Source: Erysipelotrichaceae bacterium (lineage in GTDB: Bacteria > Bacillota_I > Bacilli_A > Erysipelotrichales > Erysipelotrichaceae). From it: 64,000 nucleotides of DNA. The stretch covers positions 62,001 to 126,000 of the forward strand of contig JAFQZR010000027.1 of the NCBI GenBank assembly GCA_017405785.1. The letters run 5' to 3'. Positions 39,090 to 58,164 of this stretch are shown here, one piece after another. The first letter of the stretch is position 1; every line of letters begins with the position of its first letter. The notes beneath the pieces are model-generated. The model saw only the letters and a program-made list of their open reading frames with translations. It was not told where the DNA came from and searched no databases. The translations under genes were made by a program, and so were the position numbers.

Positions 39090-39875
39090 ATGGATTATCA
39101 GTCAATATTTGAAAGAGTAGAATCAAAATATGTTCTGACCGGATCACAGTACGAAAATCTCAGAAACAGGATCCAGGACAGACTGCAGGAAGACCTCTTC
39201 CCTCACAGCGATATTTCAAGCATATATTTCGATACCGATAATTACAGACTGGCAAGAGCCGCGCTTGAAAAGCCGGCTTACCGTGAAAAGCTCAGATTAA
39301 GAAGCTATGGCATGAAAGATGATTCCTCCGAAGTGTTCATGGAACTCAAGAAAAAGTATTTGGGAGTCATCTACAAGAGAAGACGGGCAATGAGCTATCA
39401 CAACGCCATGAATTACATTCTTTTCGGCAGAAAGCCTGACAACACTCAGATCGTCAATGAGATCGACTACATGATGAAGAAATATCCCGATCTCAAACCG
39501 CGTGTTCTGATCAGTTACGAAAGAGACTCATATGTTGTCATCAACGACAGCAACATAAGAATTACCTTTGATTACAATGTCCGCTATTCACTGGACAATG
39601 TCACTCTAAAAAACAACAAAGCTGAAAAACAGCTGACCGGTGAAGACACCGTCATCATGGAAATAAAGTCACTGAATGCCATGCCTTTATGGCTGACTGA
39701 AGTCCTTGACGAGATGAACATCTTTCCGGGCAATTATTCCAAATACGGTCAGATATACACTGACGTCATCATGAAAGGAGCTAAAAAATGTTACAACAGT
39801 TATTCACATCAATATATTCAGGAACCATTACCTTTGAGATATTCATCATCTGCACGGCTGCATCAGTCATTCTAG
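39090..39875 (+). CDS. VTC-domain protein (polyphosphate polymerase type)
   Basis: A 261-residue protein matching the VTC domain, the catalytic tunnel of the yeast polyphosphate polymerase Vtc4. Visible elements are the early RVESKYVLT, the SSIYFDTDNYRLA strand, basic EKLRLRSYG, the acidic MELKKKYLGVIYKRR, VLISYERDSYV, and IMEIKS near the end; these alternating Lys/Arg and Glu positions line the tunnel. Bacterial copies are usually paired, as here, with DUF4956. GGAGG lies 8 nt upstream of the ATG. The 3' end overlaps the next gene by 88 bp. Polyphosphate synthesis by bacterial members is inferred, not shown. Confidence 0.85.
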   Translation: MDYQSIFERVESKYVLTGSQYENLRNRIQDRLQEDLFPHSDISSIYFDTDNYRLARAALEKPAYREKLRLRSYGMKDDSSEVFMELKKKYLGVIYKRRRAMSYHNAMNYILFGRKPDNTQIVNEIDYMMKKYPDLKPRVLISYERDSYVVINDSNIRITFDYNVRYSLDNVTLKNNKAEKQLTGEDTVIMEIKSLNAMPLWLTEVLDEMNIFPGNYSKYGQIYTDVIMKGAKKCYNSYSHQYIQEPLPLRYSSSARLHQSF

Positions 39876-40456
39876 GTGCCTTACTGGCACTGCTTCAGGG
39901 TTATCTGAACAGAAGCAATCCCAGCTATCAGATGACACTTGTATTAATGCCTGTCGTTGCCCAGACGGTCATCATGATGGTCAACGGCAATGTCGGTACG
40001 GGTATAGCCGTTGCAGGAGCATTTGGCTTAGTCAGATTCAGAAGCATGCAGTATAAAGCTGAAGACATCCTTCTGATCTTTGTAGCCGTGACTATCGGCC
40101 TGGCAAACTCCATAGGCTACATCGGTTTCAGCACACTGTTTACGCTTATAGTGTGTGTTATAATGTTTGTATTCTATAAGATCTCAGGCAATTATTCCCA
40201 ACTCCATCAGGAGCTGAGAATCACCTGCCCTGAAAGCATGAATTACAATGAGGAACTGGCTGACGTATTAGACAGATATACCGTCAGCAATGAATTAATT
40301 ACAGTTAAGACCACTAATATGGGAAGTCTGTACAGACTTACATACGATGTGGTATTGAAAGACAGAAAGGATATCCAGAACTTCATCAATGAGTTAAGGA
40401 TCCGCAACAGCAATCTTGAAATCAGTTTGGGAGTATTCCCGGAGGTAAGCGAATAA
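39788..40456 (+). CDS. DUF4956 membrane protein
   Basis: A 222-residue protein with four hydrophobic segments in its first 125 residues, including GNVGTGIAVAGAFGLVRFRS, then a soluble C-terminal domain of about 90 residues (TVSNELITVKTTNMGSLYRL). This matches DUF4956, which accompanies VTC-domain proteins in many bacteria and may anchor the polymerase at the membrane or carry the polymer across (inference). AAAGGAG lies just before the ATG, inside the end of the VTC gene, an 88-bp overlap in another frame. The following gene starts directly after its stop. Confidence 0.85.
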   Translation: MLQQLFTSIYSGTITFEIFIICTAASVILGALLALLQGYLNRSNPSYQMTLVLMPVVAQTVIMMVNGNVGTGIAVAGAFGLVRFRSMQYKAEDILLIFVAVTIGLANSIGYIGFSTLFTLIVCVIMFVFYKISGNYSQLHQELRITCPESMNYNEELADVLDRYTVSNELITVKTTNMGSLYRLTYDVVLKDRKDIQNFINELRIRNSNLEISLGVFPEVSE

Positions 40457-41890
40457 ATGAAGAAACTAATGACTATCTTAATGGCAGTCTTACTGCTGGC
40501 AGGATGCGGCAGTAAGACAGTCATAGACAATAACGAGACAGAAGACAACACCGTAAACACAAACACAGATGCCATCACAGACAATGAAGAAAAACCTGTA
40601 GAAAATATCACCGTTGAAGTAACTACAACCGTAAACAATACCATTAAGGAAACAGTATCATTCAATGGTACGGATTACGATACCTCAGTATCAAAACGTG
40701 ATTTATCCGGAAGCTACGATCAAATCACCGGAACAGTATCTTTCTCAGGTTCTGACGTTTCAGTCACCGGTAAAAACATCACAGTCTCCGGTTCAACGGT
40801 AAAAATCACGGCTGAAGGCACTTATGTTCTCAGCGGAAATGGTACCGCAACTGTAATTGTTGAGACTGACAGTAACTCTAAGGTTCAGATAATCCTGAAT
40901 AATCTGACTTTACAGGGAGAAAACAATGCCGCAATTCTGATTGGACAGGCTGATAAAGTATTTATCACATTGGCTGACAATACAGTTAACACCCTCTCCG
41001 ATCCATCTTCTTATACCTATACATACGATGGAACGGACGTTGATGCAGCATTGTTCGCAAAAGACGATCTGACCATTAACGGCACCGGTACTCTTAATGT
41101 TACGGGTAATAAGAGCCACGGCATCGTCTGCAAGGATGATCTGATAATTGCCGGAGCAACCGTAAGCGTCACTTCCAAAAACACCGCCATCAACGGCAAG
41201 GACTCCGTATTACTTATCAGCGCGACTGTTTCAGTGAATGCCGGAACTGACGGCATTAAATCAGCTAACGACACTGATGCCGGCAAGGGATACATTTACA
41301 TCAACAGCTCCACTGTTACAGCCAAGGCCACTGATAAAGGCCTTCAGGCAACAAGTGCCATCATCATCGACAGCGGCACGATCTCCGTAACTGCCCGGGA
41401 CGATGGCATCCACAGTGATAAAGACATTCTGATCAACTCAGGCACACTCACCGTGAATTCAGGTGATGACGGCATCCACCGGGATCACACCCTGGAAATC
41501 AATGACGGCATGGTAACCGTAAAAGCCGGTGAAGGAATGGAAGCTACCATTGTTACCCTTAATGACGGTGAAGTAACCATCAATGCTTCGGATGACGGTA
41601 TCAACGCTGCCAAGAAGGTTTCAGGAGTAACACCTTGCATTACCATCAACGGCGGTACCCTGACAATTAACATGGGCCAGGGCGATACCGATGCCCTGGA
41701 TTCCAATGGTAACCTGATCATCAACGGCGGATACATTTCCATTACCGCTCAGTTCCCGTTTGACTGGGACGGTACGGCACAGCTTAACGGCGGTACGGTC
41801 ATCGTCAACGGGTCACAGGTCACCCAGCTCACCAATCAGTTTGGCGGCGGTGGACAGCCTGGCGGTGGCGGATTCGGTCCAAGAGGATAG
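40457..41890 (+). CDS. Beta-helix carbohydrate-binding lipoprotein (Cthe_2159-like)
   Basis: A 477-residue secreted lipoprotein: lipobox LLAGC (Cys17), then a low-complexity Asn/Thr/Asp linker of about 40 residues, then a right-handed beta-helix with repeats such as ITINGGTLTIN, ILINSGTLTVNSGDDGIH and ITASDDGI-type turns. The end is glycine-rich (GGGGQPGGGGFGPRG). It resembles the Cthe_2159 family, first described in Clostridium thermocellum as binding cellulose or pectin and calcium. It is the surface member of the VTC-DUF4956 operon; many related loci also hold a CotH-like kinase, not seen here. Terminator follows. Confidence 0.85.
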   Translation: MKKLMTILMAVLLLAGCGSKTVIDNNETEDNTVNTNTDAITDNEEKPVENITVEVTTTVNNTIKETVSFNGTDYDTSVSKRDLSGSYDQITGTVSFSGSDVSVTGKNITVSGSTVKITAEGTYVLSGNGTATVIVETDSNSKVQIILNNLTLQGENNAAILIGQADKVFITLADNTVNTLSDPSSYTYTYDGTDVDAALFAKDDLTINGTGTLNVTGNKSHGIVCKDDLIIAGATVSVTSKNTAINGKDSVLLISATVSVNAGTDGIKSANDTDAGKGYIYINSSTVTAKATDKGLQATSAIIIDSGTISVTARDDGIHSDKDILINSGTLTVNSGDDGIHRDHTLEINDGMVTVKAGEGMEATIVTLNDGEVTINASDDGINAAKKVSGVTPCITINGGTLTINMGQGDTDALDSNGNLIINGGYISITAQFPFDWDGTAQLNGGTVIVNGSQVTQLTNQFGGGGQPGGGGFGPRG

Positions 41891-51485: not shown

Positions 51486-52883
51486 TTATTTATCTGCTTT
51501 CTCTTGTCTAAATTTTACAATATCGCCCAGCATTTTTTCAACGGCAATGCTGAGTTTATCAAGGGTGGAATCATTGTCAATAACCCTGTCAGCGACAGCT
51601 CTTTTTTCACTGTCAGGAGTCTGATTATTCAGTACTGCCATGATGTTTTCCCTGCTCATGTTTCTGGTTCTCTGCAGTCTTTCAACAGCTGTTTCCACGC
51701 TGCAGGTCACTAAGATGTTACAGTCAAAACGGCGGTACCAGTCGGTTTCAAACAACAGCGGTACTTCAACGAAAACCGCCGGATCATGTATGTGCTCTTC
51801 ATAGAATTCTCTGACACGCTGCCAGATCAGTCCATGAAGATATTCTTCCAGCTTTTCCTTTATCTCAGGGTCACTGTAGATGACTCTGCTGACTTCCTTC
51901 TTCTCATCTTCTCCTGTTATCCGTCTGATTTCGGCCCTTATTTCATTATCCAACCATAGCTGAGAGTTGATCTCATCACAGCTTATGACCGGATATCCCT
52001 GCTCTTTTATAAGCTCAGATACCGTTGATTTACCGGATCCGATGTTACCCGTAACCGCCGCAAACAAAGCTTTTTCCTTCTGACAGTTCGGGCAGTAGTA
52101 AGTCCCTCTCCCATTAACAAAACACTTTTTTATTTCCGTGCCGCATTCGCATTTTTCATGCGCACGGCTGTGAACATGGAGGTTCTGCTGGAACATGCCG
52201 GTAACACCTAACGAACTTGTATAGGATCTGATGGTCGTTCCTCCGGCCTTTATGGCTTCAGCCAGGATCTTTCTGGTGCTTTCAATGATCTGATCCCATT
52301 TTTCCCTGGAAACAAAGCATGCCGGATGCATAGGATTGATTCTGACGTCAAAACAGATCTCGTTGGCATAGATATTTCCTATTCCGGCGATCATTGACTG
52401 GTCCAGAAGCTGGGTTTTTATCGGTGTGTTCTTATGCTGGCAGTAACTCTTAAGCCACTCGCTGTTAAGCTTTTCATCAAAAGGTTCATATCCCAGTGAT
52501 TCCAGAGCCTTTAATGGCTGGCCTTTTTCATACAGCCAGAAGCGCCCGAACTTACGGACATCGTTATAATGCAGTTCTCCTTTGTCCAGCTTGAAGACTA
52601 TATGGGTGTGCTTGTCCGGTTCCCGGTGTTCAGGATAGACGTAGAACTTTCCTTCCATGCGCAGATGAGCAATCATTACATAGTCAGTCAGATTGAAAAC
52701 AAGGAACTTTCCTCTGCGGTCAAAAGTTTCAAATTTCTGTCCCTTAAGACAAGCTGAAAAAGCCGTGGCATCAGGATAATCCACGATTCTTTCATATATT
52801 ATATCAACACTTTCTATAATTCTGTTATGTATCTTCTGTTCAAGTGTTCTGACAACTGTTTCAACCTCAGGAAGTTCCGGCAT
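51486..52883 (-). CDS. mutM-coaE: Fusion: formamidopyrimidine-DNA glycosylase + dephospho-CoA kinase
   Basis: One 465-residue frame encodes two complete enzymes. Residues 1-270 are MutM, which removes 8-oxoguanine: catalytic Pro2 and Glu3 (MPELPEVETV), Lys59, the QSMIAGIGNIYANE helix-two-turn-helix, and a zinc finger ending NGRGTYYCPNCQ. Residues 272-465 are CoaE, which phosphorylates dephospho-CoA: P-loop TGNIGSGKST (278-287), VISCDEIN and VEVPLLFE. In Bacillus mutM and coaE are adjacent separate genes after polA, and the junction lacks any start codon for CoaE, so the fusion arose in place. The first zinc half reads Cys-Glu-Cys, one residue tighter than the usual CxxC. Confidence 0.95.
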   Translation of the reverse strand: MPELPEVETVVRTLEQKIHNRIIESVDIIYERIVDYPDATAFSACLKGQKFETFDRRGKFLVFNLTDYVMIAHLRMEGKFYVYPEHREPDKHTHIVFKLDKGELHYNDVRKFGRFWLYEKGQPLKALESLGYEPFDEKLNSEWLKSYCQHKNTPIKTQLLDQSMIAGIGNIYANEICFDVRINPMHPACFVSREKWDQIIESTRKILAEAIKAGGTTIRSYTSSLGVTGMFQQNLHVHSRAHEKCECGTEIKKCFVNGRGTYYCPNCQKEKALFAAVTGNIGSGKSTVSELIKEQGYPVISCDEINSQLWLDNEIRAEIRRITGEDEKKEVSRVIYSDPEIKEKLEEYLHGLIWQRVREFYEEHIHDPAVFVEVPLLFETDWYRRFDCNILVTCSVETAVERLQRTRNMSRENIMAVLNNQTPDSEKRAVADRVIDNDSTLDKLSIAVEKMLGDIVKFRQEKADK

Positions 52884-52884
52884 A

Positions 52885-55440
52885 TTACTTGACCTCCAGC
52901 CAGTTATTGCCGCTCTCGGCTTCTGCCAGTAGCGGAACCTTCAGTTCCATGGCATTTTCCATTTCTTCTTCCACCAGTTTCATTATTATCTGTTCCTCAT
53001 CTTTCGGAACATTCAGAATCAGCTCGTCATGAATCTGCAGGATCATGCGGGCTTTCAAGCCTTCCTTGTTGATTCTGTTATAGACATTTATCATGGCAAT
53101 CTTTATCAGATCGGCAGCACTGCCCTGCACCGGTGCATTCATGGCAGCTCTTTTGCCGAATTCACGCAGTGAATGGTTGGAGCTCTTGATTTCCGGAATG
53201 TCACGGCGGCGGTTGCACATTGTGGTGACATAGCCCTTCTCCTGACACTCAGCAATCGTTTCATCCATGAACTTACGGACATTAGGATACTGACGGAAAT
53301 AGGATTCGATGTATTCTCTGGCCTGATAGACCGGGATCTCCAGTCTTTCCGCCAGACCAAAATCACTCATGCCGTAGTCAATTCCGAAATTGATGGCCTT
53401 GGCCTGTCTTCTCTGTAAAGGTGTTACCTCTTCAGCCGGGATGTTGAATACATCCATTGCGGTTCTGGTATGAATGTCCATACCCTGACGGAAGGCATCG
53501 ATGAGCCGTTTCTCATCTGCCAGATGAGCCAGGATCCTTAATTCAACCTGAGAATAGTCCGCACCGACAAAGACACAGCCCTCTTCCGGTATGAAGGCAG
53601 CTCTGATCATCTGCGCTTCTTCATTACGGACGGATATGTTCTGCAGGTTCGGATTGGAACTGGACAGTCGTCCTGTCTCAGCGATGCACTGATTGTATTC
53701 TGTATGGATCTTACTGTCGGCGGTAATGTATTTCTTCAGCCCTATGGCATAAGTGCTGTTAAGCTTGGCGTATTTACGGTATTCCAGAATGGCTGTGATT
53801 ATCGGATGTCTGTCTTCGATCTTCTTCAGCACTGATGCATCCGTTGATCTCTTCGGTGAACGCATCAGTTTCAGATCATCATAAATCACCTCTGCCAGCT
53901 GCTTTGGTGAATTGATGTTAAACTGTCTTCCGGCCATCGAATAGATCTGCTCTTCCAGGGCAGCGATCTTGACACTGGTTTCCCGGGCGATCTTGTCCAA
54001 TACGGAAACATCGACACGGACACCGGTTTTCTCCATGTCAAAGAGTACTCTGGCCAGTGGCAATTCGATGTCACGGTAGAGATCTACCATGCCGTAATCT
54101 GCCAGTTCTTTCTTTAAGGTTTCCTCAACCTTATAGAGATTCCCTGCCATCTGGCACAGGTAATCCCGGTCTTCATTGCTTTCCTCTTCAAACAGGGTTA
54201 TCTGAGCTGTACTCTCACCGGCTGTTACCGTCAGGTGATACTTAAGCATCAGAGCTTCCAGATTCTTGATCTTTCCGTCGATCAGGAAAGCCTGGATCAT
54301 GGTGTCATTGATTATTCCGTTAACGGTCAGGCTGTATTTATCCAGCACATGATACCAGTGCTTGATGTTATGAACTGTCTTTTCTGTCTTTTCATCCTGC
54401 AGCCAGGATACAAATGTCTTATCGTTTACCGCGTCAGCCAGAGCAATGTAATAGCTGTCCAAGCCGTCGCTTAAGCCCAGTCCCTGTTCATTCATGTGCA
54501 GAGCCATGTGAGCTTTCAGATCAGTCTTTTCAAAGTATCTGACGGTTTTCTGGGTTCCCGTTTTCTTTTCTTCAACCGGTTCGCTCACGGTAACGTTCTT
54601 CAGGAAGGAACGCATTTCATATTTACTGTAGAACTTCATGGCATCTTCGCCATAAAGGTTGTAATCACATTCATCGATGTTGATGTCAATGTCAGCATCG
54701 ATCTTGATGGTTGCCAGCCACTTTGACATTAACGCAACATCATGATCCTTGACCAGATTCTCTTTAAGTTTTCCCTTGAGTTCATCAATATGCTCATAGA
54801 CACCTTCAACACTGCCGTAATCGTTCAGCAGCTTGATGGCGGTCTTATCGCCGACCTTGGTAACTCCCGGGATGTTATCACTGGTATCTCCTGCCAGTCC
54901 CTTAAGGTCGATGATCTGTAAAGGTGTCAGCTGATACTTTTCATAAACGGCTGCCGGATCCATCAGATCCATTTCCGTGATTCCCTTGACCATCAGCCAG
55001 ACCTTTATACGGTCATCTACGATCTGTAACAGGTCACGGTCGGAAGTCAGGACATTGATGTCATATTCCGTCTTCTGCTTGGCTAAGGAACCGATGATGT
55101 CATCAGCTTCGATGCCGGCCTGTTCAAACTGTTTCATGTCAATGGCCTGCAGATATTCTCTGATGATCGGGAACTGGGCTACCAGATTATCCGGAGCTGC
55201 CTGTCTGGTTCCCTTATACCGCCGGTACACTTCGCGGCGGAAATTGTGTCTGTCATGGTCAAAGGCCACAACGACAAAATCAGGCGCTATAACTTCCAGC
55301 GCCTTATGTAGCATTGAAGCGAATCCAAAGATCGCATTGGTAGGGATCCCTGACGATGTGGACATCGGTCTGCCGTATGCGGTTGCATAGTAAGCTCTAA
55401 ACAGCATGGAGTTGCCGTCAATCAGAAGCAGTTTCTTCAT
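52885..55440 (-). CDS. polA: DNA polymerase I
   Basis: Repair and Okazaki-processing polymerase, 851 residues from 55440 (MKKLLLIDGN). The N-terminal 5' nuclease (about 1-290) has GIEADDIIGSLAK and GLAGDTSDNIPGV. The middle 3'-5' exonuclease domain is degenerate: the DxE metal motif is replaced by SYYIALADA, as in Bacillus and Taq-type enzymes, so no proofreading is expected. The polymerase has motif A VGADYSQVELRILAHL, motif B RRQAKAINFGIDYG and motif C QIHDELIL. The ribosome site is weak (GGTG) and the start lies 1 bp after the upstream lipoprotein stop, suggesting coupling. Confidence 0.97.
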   Translation of the reverse strand: MKKLLLIDGNSMLFRAYYATAYGRPMSTSSGIPTNAIFGFASMLHKALEVIAPDFVVVAFDHDRHNFRREVYRRYKGTRQAAPDNLVAQFPIIREYLQAIDMKQFEQAGIEADDIIGSLAKQKTEYDINVLTSDRDLLQIVDDRIKVWLMVKGITEMDLMDPAAVYEKYQLTPLQIIDLKGLAGDTSDNIPGVTKVGDKTAIKLLNDYGSVEGVYEHIDELKGKLKENLVKDHDVALMSKWLATIKIDADIDINIDECDYNLYGEDAMKFYSKYEMRSFLKNVTVSEPVEEKKTGTQKTVRYFEKTDLKAHMALHMNEQGLGLSDGLDSYYIALADAVNDKTFVSWLQDEKTEKTVHNIKHWYHVLDKYSLTVNGIINDTMIQAFLIDGKIKNLEALMLKYHLTVTAGESTAQITLFEEESNEDRDYLCQMAGNLYKVEETLKKELADYGMVDLYRDIELPLARVLFDMEKTGVRVDVSVLDKIARETSVKIAALEEQIYSMAGRQFNINSPKQLAEVIYDDLKLMRSPKRSTDASVLKKIEDRHPIITAILEYRKYAKLNSTYAIGLKKYITADSKIHTEYNQCIAETGRLSSSNPNLQNISVRNEEAQMIRAAFIPEEGCVFVGADYSQVELRILAHLADEKRLIDAFRQGMDIHTRTAMDVFNIPAEEVTPLQRRQAKAINFGIDYGMSDFGLAERLEIPVYQAREYIESYFRQYPNVRKFMDETIAECQEKGYVTTMCNRRRDIPEIKSSNHSLREFGKRAAMNAPVQGSAADLIKIAMINVYNRINKEGLKARMILQIHDELILNVPKDEEQIIMKLVEEEMENAMELKVPLLAEAESGNNWLEVK

Positions 55441-55441
55441 G

Positions 55442-56413
55442 TTATTCTTCACCGCCAAATGCATCTGTCAGAGCTTTCAGATTCTGATACATGATGGTCA
55501 TGTAGTCCATGTTGCTCTCAACGTTCTTTTCCGAAAGAATGGTGAGAGATGACAGGTTGATCGGAGTCAGATCGAGTTCTTCACGAACCTGCCGGTAAAG
55601 TTCCTGCATGTCTTCAGGAAGAGTATCGTCATATACGATGTATTTGACATCGTTTTTCTTTATTTCATTTTTGATGAATTCCAGCTGCCGGGCATCAGGG
55701 AGAACACCGTATTCGGAAAGAATCAGCGGGTATACTTCGATGCCGTATGTCTTCTGCCAGTTGCCGAATGTACAGGCAACGGTAACCATCTTCTTGTCGG
55801 TATACTGCTTCAGCATCTGATATTCAGAGTCAAGTCTGACTAGCTGAGCCTGCAGATTCTTGAAGTTGTTTTCAATAGACAGAGATTCTTCCGGATAGTA
55901 GTTCTGCAGCCATTCCTTGATGGTAGCAGCCATGGAGGATGCAGCGATCGGATCGATCCAGATGAACGGGTCTTTCTTATAGGTATCGACCATGTCAAAC
56001 AGTGCTGAATCATAGTACTTTGATTCAGTTACCACTGTTGAGCCGTTCGGGGCTGTCGTCAGAATAAATCTTTTGAACTCATCGATGGCGCTTAAAGCTG
56101 CCAGATTGATGATGTTGAAATCATAGGACTGAATGTGCTCCTCATATATCTTCAGATACGGCTCAAGTTCTCCTATATAAAGAAACAGTGCGGTATCCTC
56201 AAAGATCTTTTCATAGCCGCTCTTGAGCGTCGCTCTCTGAATGAACTCATCAGTGCTGATGCATTCAACATTAACTCTATTACCGGCCAGCTGTTCGACG
56301 ATATACTTAACCGGGTATACTGTCGTAACAATTGTCGCCTTTTTACTCTTGCATCCGGAAAGCAGGCCAAGCAACATAGATATCAGGATAAGAATAATAA
56401 CTTTTCTTTTCAT
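55442..56413 (-). CDS. ZnuA-fold metal-binding lipoprotein lacking histidine ligands
   Basis: A 323-residue lipoprotein: hydrophobic signal, lipobox LLSGC (Cys21) and a cluster A-I solute-binding fold (TIVTTVYPVKYIVEQLAGNRVNVECI; LFLYIGELEPYLKIY). In Zn/Mn binders the ligands come from His-FEP, DPHIW and a HD-AFGY element. Here those positions read TDEFIQRAT, DPFIWIDP (His to Phe) and ACTFGNWQ (His to Cys-Thr), and no His-rich loop exists. Metal binding of the usual kind is therefore unlikely. No ABC permease or ATPase is adjacent; instead it heads the polA operon. It could bind another ligand or serve as a surface protein. Confidence 0.8.
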   Translation of the reverse strand: MKRKVIILILISMLLGLLSGCKSKKATIVTTVYPVKYIVEQLAGNRVNVECISTDEFIQRATLKSGYEKIFEDTALFLYIGELEPYLKIYEEHIQSYDFNIINLAALSAIDEFKRFILTTAPNGSTVVTESKYYDSALFDMVDTYKKDPFIWIDPIAASSMAATIKEWLQNYYPEESLSIENNFKNLQAQLVRLDSEYQMLKQYTDKKMVTVACTFGNWQKTYGIEVYPLILSEYGVLPDARQLEFIKNEIKKNDVKYIVYDDTLPEDMQELYRQVREELDLTPINLSSLTILSEKNVESNMDYMTIMYQNLKALTDAFGGEE

Positions 56414-56436
56414 GTATGTCTGTGCCTCCTTTTAGA

Positions 56437-56454
56437 ATTATAGCACAGATTATA
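56437..56454 (-). promoter_or_regulatory. Tandem -10 boxes before the ZnuA-like/polA operon
   Basis: Minus-strand TATAAT occurs at 56437-56442 and 56449-56454; the first has a TG extension (TGTGCTATAAT). -35 boxes are poor. Confidence 0.5.
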
Positions 56455-56466
56455 CGCTCCATCACC

Positions 56467-57147
56467 TCATATTCTGCCGTTTTCACGGAAACTGTAATAG
56501 CCGTCATAACTGACAATTATGTGATCGATCAGCGGTATGTTCATTATTTCCCCTGCTTTCTGCAGCTGGCTGGTTATCTCAATGTCAGCACAGGAAGGAT
56601 CACACATCTGGCTGGGATGGTTATGGGCTACAATCAGCCTGCTGGCCTGAGAGCGCATTGCCTCACTGAACAGTTCCCTGATATCAATGTTCACGGAATT
56701 ACCCGAACCGATGAAGATGTCCCTGTGGCCTCGAACCCTTGCCCTGTTGTCCAGAAAGACTGCCACAAAGTATTCCTGGCTGCGGTTTCCGTATGTCTTC
56801 TGCAGCCATTTTATAAGCATCTGAGGATTATTCAGAACATCGTTGTTAAGAATGTGAAGGTAATTCATCCTTCTCACCAGTTCAAGAGAGGCCAGTAACT
56901 GCGTAGCCTTGGCCATCTTTATGCCTTTAAACTGCATCAGCTGTTCCGCAGACATGCTTAAAAGTCCTGTCAGTCCGTCTGTATTCACCAGGATCTGATG
57001 AGCAAGGTCAATGCTGCTTATTCCCTTCATCCCGCTGCCCAGCATCAAAGCCAGCAGTTCGCTGTCGCTGAGCGCAGTAAAGCCCAGATTCAAAGCTTTT
57101 TCTCTGGGCCTGAGATTAATGGGCATGTCCTTAACCGTGTGGTTCAT
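56467..57147 (-). CDS. radC: RadC-type JAB/MPN domain protein
   Basis: A 226-residue protein from 57147: an N-terminal helix-hairpin-helix region (RPREKALNLGFTALSDSELLALMLGSG and LMQFKGIKMAKATQL) and the JAMM metal motif HNHPS-N6-D (HNHPSQMCDPSCAD) with an upstream glutamate. Once named a DNA repair protein, the family has no proven repair role; some members occur with mobile elements, others, as here, in the core genome. GGGGAAAC lies upstream. It starts 2 bp after the 56-residue membrane ORF. Confidence 0.94.
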   Translation of the reverse strand: MNHTVKDMPINLRPREKALNLGFTALSDSELLALMLGSGMKGISSIDLAHQILVNTDGLTGLLSMSAEQLMQFKGIKMAKATQLLASLELVRRMNYLHILNNDVLNNPQMLIKWLQKTYGNRSQEYFVAVFLDNRARVRGHRDIFIGSGNSVNIDIRELFSEAMRSQASRLIVAHNHPSQMCDPSCADIEITSQLQKAGEIMNIPLIDHIIVSYDGYYSFRENGRI

Positions 57148-57149
57148 GA

Positions 57150-57320
57150 TCAGTTTCCCCACGTCAGGGACACGCCGCCGACCTGTACTTTTCCTCTTGC
57201 GGAAAAAAGTATTTTCAGAATGCCTGCACCGATGGCAGCCAGAGCGAAATACAGCAGAAGCGATCCGCCCGTTAAGCCCAATCCGTACAGTTTTCTGCAT
57301 TGCTGTTGTGTCAGTCGCAT
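57150..57320 (-). CDS. Small membrane protein before radC (56 residues)
   Basis: Starting at 57320 with a perfect AAGGAGG 7 nt upstream, this frame encodes 56 residues: basic start MRLTQQQCRKLYG, one hydrophobic segment of about 22 residues (LTGGSLLLYFALAAIGAGIL), and a short basic tail. The longer frame continues leftwards into the HAD gene and is spurious. It ends 2 bp before radC, so the two are probably co-expressed. I do not recognise a family. Notably, its ribosome site is the 3' arm of a hairpin that looks like a terminator. Confidence 0.7.
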   Translation of the reverse strand: MRLTQQQCRKLYGLGLTGGSLLLYFALAAIGAGILKILFSARGKVQVGGVSLTWGN

Positions 57321-57321
57321 A

Positions 57322-57355
57322 CAAAAACCTCCTTCAATACTTAATTGACGGAGGT
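57322..57355 (-). terminator. Hairpin containing the ribosome site of the 56-residue ORF
   Basis: On the minus strand ACCTCC-x-TCAAT pairs with ATTGA-x-GGAGGT around a 5-nt loop, followed by TTTTTGT. It can end the HAD transcript, and when not terminating it hides the GGAGG of the small ORF. Confidence 0.6.
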
Positions 57356-57366
57356 CTTTATTATTC

Positions 57367-58164
57367 CTAGATGATTTCGAAATGTTTAAGGGCTTTCCAG
57401 ATGCCGTCCTTGTCAATGTCATCCGTAACATAGTCAGCCACTGCTTTGGCTTCCCGGGTACCATTGCCCATGCAGATGCCCAATCCGGCCTTAATAATCA
57501 TTTCACAGTCGTTCTGACTGTCCCCGAAGGCTATTGCCTGATCATAGGTATATCCCAATCTGTCAAGCAGAATACCCAGCATGACTCCCTTGTCTGCTTC
57601 CTTATTGAAAGCTTCATAGATGATCTTCCGGCTGTTGGCTCGAACGAACTTGAGATCGTCAAACTGGTCAAAATACTGCGGCAGCATGTCATCATCGGCA
57701 TAGATGAAAGCATCCAGCGGCATTTCCTTTTTCAGATGATAATCACGTCCCGGACAGTTGTTCAGCATATCCTCGGTAATTGAGCCTTTGCAGTAGCGGG
57801 ATGTAAACTCATCATAACGGTTGTAGATCTGGAAAGAGTCAGTGAATTTAAAGCCCAAAGGATAATCATGTTTCAGCGCGATTTCAATGATCTTTTCCAC
57901 TGACTGCTCTGACATGTAAAAACAGTGCAGCAGCTCGCCGTCGAATTTGTTGAGACTGGCTCCGTTTACTCCGATAAAGTAATTACCGGGTACTCTGGCC
58001 AGAATGTCAGGATGGACCGCATTGATGGTTCTTCCCGTACATATCACTATCTCATATCCCTTATCATGACATTCCCTGATAGCCTGCAGGGCACTTTCCT
58101 CAACCGTGGCCTTACCGCGGTTGATCAGAGTATTGTCAATGTCAAATACCAGAACCTTATACAT
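57367..58164 (-). CDS. HAD-superfamily Cof-type sugar/metabolite phosphatase
   Basis: A 265-residue HAD IIB (Cof) phosphatase: motif I VFDIDNTLINRGK (with Asn instead of Gly in DxDGT), motif II VICTGRTINAVHP, the C2b cap, motif III near KGVMLGILLDRLGY and motif IV AFGDSQNDCEMIIKAGLGICMGNG. Substrates are typically sugar phosphates or flavin/PLP phosphates. The Asn change in motif I also appears in other family members. It is 1 bp downstream of nitroreductase 2. Confidence 0.9.
   Translation of the reverse strand: MYKVLVFDIDNTLINRGKATVEESALQAIRECHDKGYEIVICTGRTINAVHPDILARVPGNYFIGVNGASLNKFDGELLHCFYMSEQSVEKIIEIALKHDYPLGFKFTDSFQIYNRYDEFTSRYCKGSITEDMLNNCPGRDYHLKKEMPLDAFIYADDDMLPQYFDQFDDLKFVRANSRKIIYEAFNKEADKGVMLGILLDRLGYTYDQAIAFGDSQNDCEMIIKAGLGICMGNGTREAKAVADYVTDDIDKDGIWKALKHFEII

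Follow-up and report, generated by a model that had tools for sequence, protein, structure and literature searches.

Does a lipoprotein of the ZnuA family that has lost the histidines of its metal site still serve a metal importer, or has it been turned to another task, and what ties its gene to that of DNA polymerase I? The question is raised by a gene, designated here as znuL, at 55442..56413 on the reverse strand of the window, which is the whole stretch of 64,000 nucleotides from an Erysipelotrichaceae bacterium that was analyzed. The name ZnuL is used here for the encoded protein and its orthologs. The open reading frame, the Pfam match and the alignment define its product as a lipoprotein of the ZnuA family, 323 aa long, in which the three ligand histidines are missing. 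The Pfam ZnuA model PF01297 matches it with 107.9 bits (cut-off 29) over the whole profile from 1 to 263, and a lipobox, LSGC, can be read from the sequence at residues 18-21 (56351..56362, reverse strand). The cysteine of the lipobox, Cys21, is aligned and kept in 107/107 orthologs. An earlier note had described a ZnuA-like lipoprotein here, and its reading frame, coordinates and strand are right. The NCBIfam models are not reached: the protein scores 81 bits with the AdcA model, which needs 700, and 49.5 bits with the ZnuA model, which needs 268. The closest solved relatives by sequence are Streptococcus pneumoniae AdcA and Bacillus subtilis YcdH, and among the relatives found by sequence in the PDB are Lmb and Lbp, which bind laminin. 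Judged from these matches, ZnuL is a member by descent of the PF01297 or cluster A-I family of binding proteins. The gene has its own Shine-Dalgarno sequence, AAAAGGAGG, at 56425..56433 on the reverse strand, with a duplex energy of -11.8.

The zinc ligands of S. pneumoniae AdcA are His63, His140, His204 and Glu279, as given in the accessible part of the report (PMC7858048). The positions of the window protein aligned to the canonical ligands, three His and one acid, are Q59, F150, A213 and D262, with their codons on the reverse strand. At the first site (residue 59, 56237..56239), Gln replaces His and is found in 94/107 orthologs, with His in 0/107. The second site (residue 150, 55964..55966) is variable; Phe in the window protein, it is F in 31 orthologs, Y in 24, M in 12, I in 9, N in 8 and other residues in the rest, including His in two (L071 and L073). 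At the third site (residue 213, 55775..55777), where the window protein has Ala, T is observed in 81, S in 16, G in 4, A in 3 and other residues in the remainder; His is never observed, and T or S together account for 97/107. The acidic position (residue 262, 55628..55630) is Asp in the window protein and acidic in all 107 (E in 92, D in 15). These 107 distinct orthologs represent 106 loci of 105 genomes plus L035, after three identical copies were dropped, and the complete ligand set of three His and an acid is found in 0/107. The claim that all histidine ligands are replaced is therefore exact for the window protein. The further claim, that anchor and fold are kept and the metal site is not, stands in part. 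The three His are lost, and the anchor and the family identity are kept, the fold being indicated by the profile coverage and a low-confidence model. The acid, the fourth ligand, is retained throughout, which the wording "not the metal site" overlooks.

Other features of the canonical site have changed as well. The His-rich loop is absent, and a different segment is present at residues 104-143, in which R115 and Y134 are each conserved in 106/107 orthologs, while the segment as a stretch is not conserved above average. Among six stretches tested, the conserved ones are 209-224, which is the loop of the third His, and 228-239. ZnuL orthologs contain 1.8 His per protein on average, compared with 9.6 in five canonical proteins. 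Besides the lipid anchor, no Cys is found among the positions conserved in more than 75% of orthologs. These observations bear on the possibility that ZnuL binds a metal weakly, or a metal of another kind, through the acid, the Gln and the hydroxyl groups, and works as a buffer or metallochaperone. The conservation of these three positions speaks for it, the acid being the one conserved residue of the kind (Cys/Asp/Glu) that the earlier note named as refuting its reading, and the ZnuA-like proteins of another Bacilli family, f14, have no third His at the aligned position and yet come from genomes that encode an ABC-3 permease in 11/11 cases. The variable second site, the loss of the His-rich loop with most of the histidines, and the lack of a conserved Cys argue against it. 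From the residues themselves, the retained acid, Gln and Thr/Ser do not form a plausible zinc site, and metal binding of this weaker kind is considered unlikely.

The f14 proteins are lipoproteins with an altered third metal site, found at eleven loci (L150-L154, L156-L159, L161 and L164). By eye, their genes precede a lysS-like gene in 11/11 loci and follow an FtsH-like gene in 10, the contig of the eleventh starting too late. Like ZnuL, they occur in Bacilli, belong to the ZnuA family, show an altered third site and have no ABC importer gene beside them (11 loci, by eye). They differ from ZnuL in retaining DPH and a nearby His at the first site. Each is the only PF01297 protein of its genome, and all 11 genomes contain one strong ABC-3 permease elsewhere; thus, the f14 ZnuA-like lipoproteins may still be transport proteins.

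Structure prediction with AlphaFold, using four sequences (the window protein and L033-L035), gave a pLDDT of 51.8 and a pTM of 0.52, and prediction from the same four sequences without the signal peptide gave 49.5 and 0.44. With the first of these low-confidence models, Foldseek placed AdcA (7jj9) at the top with an E-value of 3e-11, and the best 50 rows could all be read as metal-binding proteins of the cluster A-I kind. The VIA search with the same low-confidence model gave 2ov1 as the best match, with a Z of 11.6 and an rmsd of 9.7 over 200 residues. The model searches agree with the sequence match and are not an independent proof of the fold.

The loss of the histidines is probably at least as old as the family. 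A ZnuL ortholog is present in 106/145 genomes of Erysipelotrichaceae; the family search matched 108/145 at E<=1e-5, and two of these, G009 and G064, have just a weak match to another ZnuA-family protein. G016 and G055 yielded no candidates in the inspected searches, and they are treated as not assessable and counted among the 39 ZnuL-free genomes; together with G036, they are also the genomes missing from a polA search that matched 17/20 genomes. At the order level, 172/244 genomes match and, among the matches listed, all are in Erysipelotrichaceae. The class search found 39/296 genomes at E<=1e-30, of which 24 are in the family (at least 378.8 bits) and 15 are outside (at most 148.1 bits), and the phylum search found 27/344 genomes at E<=1e-40, of which 26 belong to the family and the other is from f14. 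Nothing of comparable score was found outside the family in the class and phylum searches, and a scan of viral contigs revealed no relative.

A tree built from 27 of the 107 ZnuL sequences, 25 canonical proteins and 15 others places ZnuL in one clade, with a support of 100/100 and a long stem of 1.33 changes per column. A recent, local loss of the histidines is ruled out, as the loss spans the family and the ZnuL clade is single. A polA tree was built by a quick method without bootstrap from 31 positives (every second genome with a long enough polA), 12 ZnuL-free genomes and 5 outgroup sequences; the ZnuL-free genomes are scattered among the ZnuL-bearing ones, and just 54 bases precede polA in one ZnuL-free row, L165. 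This scatter suggests ancestral presence followed by losses, and znuL reads as ancestral in the family, with several later losses.

ZnuL is under purifying selection. Ten pairs were tried, and for the eight that allowed dS to be computed, dN/dS is 0.013-0.092 and comparable with that of polA, a comparison in which dS was saturated for both ZnuL and polA in two pairs and one polA value was absent. In 3/4 same-genus pairs, ZnuL has a higher amino-acid identity than the part of polA with which it was compared. Purifying selection and open frames together rule out a decaying pseudogene. The ortholog match in G026 continues past a TAG.

The gene adjacent to znuL in the window is polA, encoding DNA polymerase I (52885..55440, reverse strand). 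The same order holds in relatives: polA lies 3' of znuL on the same strand in 89/105 assessable loci, L023 being left out as the locus ends 90 bases past znuL. The constant pair across the loci is znuL-polA. At the other 16/105 loci, polA was not found in the 1.5-4 kb of downstream sequence, and the protein is still kept. At three of them, L052, L058 and L085, an uncharacterised open reading frame with the motif SEYDCG lies downstream, being the first one listed in L052 and L058 and the third in L085; in L052 and L058, genes for ABC ATPase and permease proteins come next and resemble, by eye, those for spermidine/putrescine transport. Next after polA in the window is a frame at 51486..52883 (reverse strand) in which fpg (mutM) and coaE are fused. 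This 465-aa frame contains both domains nearly complete by Pfam; L033 and L034 have a single frame of similar length, and several loci, such as L036 and L062, have two frames.

Upstream, radC (56467..57150, reverse strand; the start at 57150 was chosen from the domain boundary) ends 53 bp from znuL on the same strand. No terminator-like site was found on the znuL strand in 55300-57400, Rfam gave no match at gathering score in 50-64 kb, and promoter-like sites near znuL are at chance level. The earlier note had placed znuL at the head of the polA operon; with radC 53 bp 5' on the same strand and no terminator-like site between them, this is not clear.

The start codon of polA, ATG at 55440, is separated by one base from the znuL stop (TAA-C-ATG), as the earlier note had stated. 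Its two further claims, that polA has a poor ribosome site and that translation of znuL may set that of polA, are not supported. The Shine-Dalgarno sequence of polA, GGCGGTGA, lies within the end of znuL (55449..55456, reverse strand) and is strong instead: pairing with the 16S end gives a duplex energy of -10.7, where the best 1% among 2,000 random 19-mers of the window reach -9.3. The gap between the two genes is 1 bp in 2/6 genomes of the same genus, the remaining 4 having 35-36 bp; over the 89 loci, it ranges from -20 to +974 bases with a median of 40, an outlier of -83 being probably L061, where the polA match begins at residue 115. Coupling may occur in some species, and the spacing does not indicate a conserved trait. 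An explanation in which znuL acts mainly in cis, by setting the translation of polA, could point to the junction in the window and to gaps of 10 bases or less in 23/89 loci. It is opposed by the strength of the polA site, by the wider gaps within the genus and elsewhere, by the 16 loci that retain the protein with no polA in the downstream sequence, and by selection acting at the amino-acid level, and it is extremely unlikely. The adjacency to polA would rather reflect shared transcription and an inherited position than control of polymerase translation.

Further upstream, the neighbourhood changes among lineages. The block before znuL includes radC in 41/106 loci and mreC or mreD in 35/106, with many loci too short for the comparison. 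Also recurrent in this part, as judged by eye and Pfam, are an AI-2E-family permease, a MinD-like ATPase and an M50 protease, the last in several lineages. In ZnuL-free loci of the family, the mreC-mreD pair directly precedes polA in 9/12 (by eye, with a Pfam check in L168 alone). An MreCD-linked role, which the radC-mreC-mreD order upstream of many znuL loci would suggest, is weakened because ZnuL persists in genera where mreC was not found: g1, the genus of the window (6/6 genomes, completeness being 75% and 83% in two), and g26 (4/4 genomes). In both genera, radC adjoins znuL. The one genome each of g3 and g45 that was searched gave no MreC match either. The rod-shape system has possibly been lost in g1 and g26. 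The neighbourhood of M50 protease, MreCD and RadC is taken as a lead, and as a lead only, to the process in which ZnuL takes part.

Judged by eye, the neighbourhood in the window contains no importer. As the earlier note had remarked, no transporter genes are near; by eye, no gene between 49.4 and 63.9 kb of the window is readable as one, and the nearest transporter-like gene within 30-64 kb is a permease-like open reading frame at 34.9-36.2 kb. Three adjacent open reading frames at 39090-41890 on the forward strand encode, by eye, a protein with a VTC domain, a membrane protein and a lipoprotein of repetitive sequence.

At the scale of genomes, the search covered ABC-3 importers. In 65/106 ZnuL genomes, no ABC-3 permease was detected (E<1e-20) and ZnuL is the sole PF01297 match; these absence calls rest on draft genomes, and in nine of the 65 a permease matches weakly (E 8e-9 to 8e-4) and was counted as absent. 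In our judgement, seven of the nine are partial-profile matches in frames of 329-454 residues with a FecCD-like look, and two are frames of 89 residues. Among ZnuL genomes at least 98% complete, 22/33 are without an ABC-3 permease. More than one PF01297 match is present in 40/106 genomes, all with an ABC-3 permease, and one genome (68% complete) has an ABC-3 permease with ZnuL alone. Since the genomes with several ZnuA proteins all have the permease and those with ZnuL alone lack it in 65 cases, ABC-3 tracks the other ZnuA and not ZnuL. The genome of the window follows this pattern: it has one other ZnuA, on contig C2, with an ATPase beside it and a permease close by. In this ABC-linked ZnuA (L001, 1396-2361), the third ligand site is Arg and the acidic position Ile (DRFPFRY motif), and four others of the 25 canonical tree rows share its Arg/Ile-altered site; here an altered site occurs in a protein encoded together with its transporter genes.

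ZnuL might still be a transport binding protein that works with another, non-ABC-3 importer and whose ligand, held in a remodelled cleft, would be different too, for example an organic molecule or a metal chelate. The family identity over the whole length would suit this, as would the conservation of Q59, the SFGNWQ stretch and 228-239 on or beside the old cleft loops. No transporter partner was seen to recur beside znuL, except the AI-2E-family permease upstream in some lineages; the downstream neighbours are diverse in loci without polA, and those upstream include radC, mreCD, the M50 protease and trmB. A cluster A-I binding protein serving a foreign importer would also be unusual. This explanation is regarded as doubtful. 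With no ABC-3 permease and no second ZnuA detected in 65/106 genomes and no ligand set, ZnuL is most likely not an importer subunit.

Another possibility is that ZnuL has lost its role in transport and serves as a surface adhesin of the LraI class. ZnuL is a predicted surface lipoprotein and, like Lmb, Lbp and AdcAII, belongs to cluster A-I and matches these proteins in sequence. Unlike ZnuL, however, Lmb keeps its zinc site; according to the accessible part of the report (PMC3691195), it needs the metal histidines for folding, and they affect laminin binding. The fixed chromosomal place and the family-wide inheritance of ZnuL also suit a housekeeping role better, and an adhesin of this kind is very unlikely.

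The explanation that is favored, and regarded as probable though not strongly so, is that ZnuL is an orphan, repurposed substrate-binding-protein lipoprotein that no longer serves an ABC-3 metal importer. It shares with AdcA, ZnuA and YcdH the whole-length homology, the lipoprotein anchor, the Asp/Glu ligand and the D-x-x-x-W and YG elements. Unlike them, the window ZnuL has no ligand His and no His-rich loop, carries another segment at 104-143 and is not encoded beside ABC genes, in a family where most ZnuL genomes yielded no ABC-3 permease. Closer parallels are LpqZ and FecB of mycobacteria, which, as far as the accessible part of the report describes them (PMC12802301), are lipoproteins of binding-protein descent that have no transporter and were repurposed to assist enzymes of the envelope, their partners being AftA and AftB, and whose residue conservation has shifted away from the old substrate site. 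ZnuL resembles them, as they appear in that part of the report, in being a binding-protein-homologous lipoprotein with no associated ABC-3 importer and with lineage-wide conservation. It differs from them in descent, being derived from ZnuA while their homologs are ProX, Escherichia coli FecB and SirA, and in its position before polA. For the shift of conservation described there, ZnuL gives a mixed picture: the second site is variable, but the two most conserved of the six stretches, 209-224 and 228-239, include the loop of the third His, and the models on which they could be mapped are of low confidence. A role like that of LpqZ and FecB is proposed from the binding-protein descent, the lost site, the absence of a transporter, the purifying selection and the lineage-wide inheritance.

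In the proposed mechanism, ZnuL would descend from a zinc-binding protein of cluster A-I, and its loss of zinc coordination would date from the last common ancestor of Erysipelotrichaceae or earlier. ZnuL would stay on the membrane's outer face and, by analogy with LpqZ and FecB, may act by contact with another envelope protein or through a non-metal ligand. Either interaction may be made through residues 209-239, the conserved part of the old cleft on its C-lobe side. The persistence of ZnuL in the two genera without a detected mreC counts for repurposing. Several points count against it. The acid is kept in all orthologs, which would not be required of a protein freed from the old site, and ABC-3 permeases are mildly enriched in ZnuL genomes (41/106, compared with 7/39 of the ZnuL-free ones; Fisher p=0.028, relatedness not corrected). 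The weak permease matches in nine of the 65 genomes and the draft state of the genomes also weigh against it, and the low-confidence models do not show the conserved residues clustered in the cleft. A different form of metal-free function can also be considered, in which ZnuL is an extracytoplasmic receptor or partner with a new ligand or enzyme and is fixed beside polA through a shared process, such as the sensing or handling of nucleotides or DNA outside the cell, or envelope stress that makes DNA repair necessary. This is distinctly unlikely.

Orphan binding-protein lipoproteins are known, and a family-wide one derived from ZnuA, without a metal site and encoded beside polA, was not met in the open-licence literature; there, among the matches listed, no paper title or opening abstract describes ZnuL or a znuA-like gene beside polA. 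From its Pfam match, ZnuL is expected to be annotated as a binding protein of a zinc or metal ABC transporter, and this label is probably wrong in most genomes of the family. The 65 genomes without a detected ABC-3 permease or another ZnuA, many of them near-complete, raise the question of how zinc and manganese enter these cells. In Lmb, mutation of the same histidines left the protein largely insoluble, according to the accessible part of the report (PMC3691195). ZnuL would represent a natural experiment, carried out in more than 100 genomes, in which a cluster A-I protein is stable without a metal.
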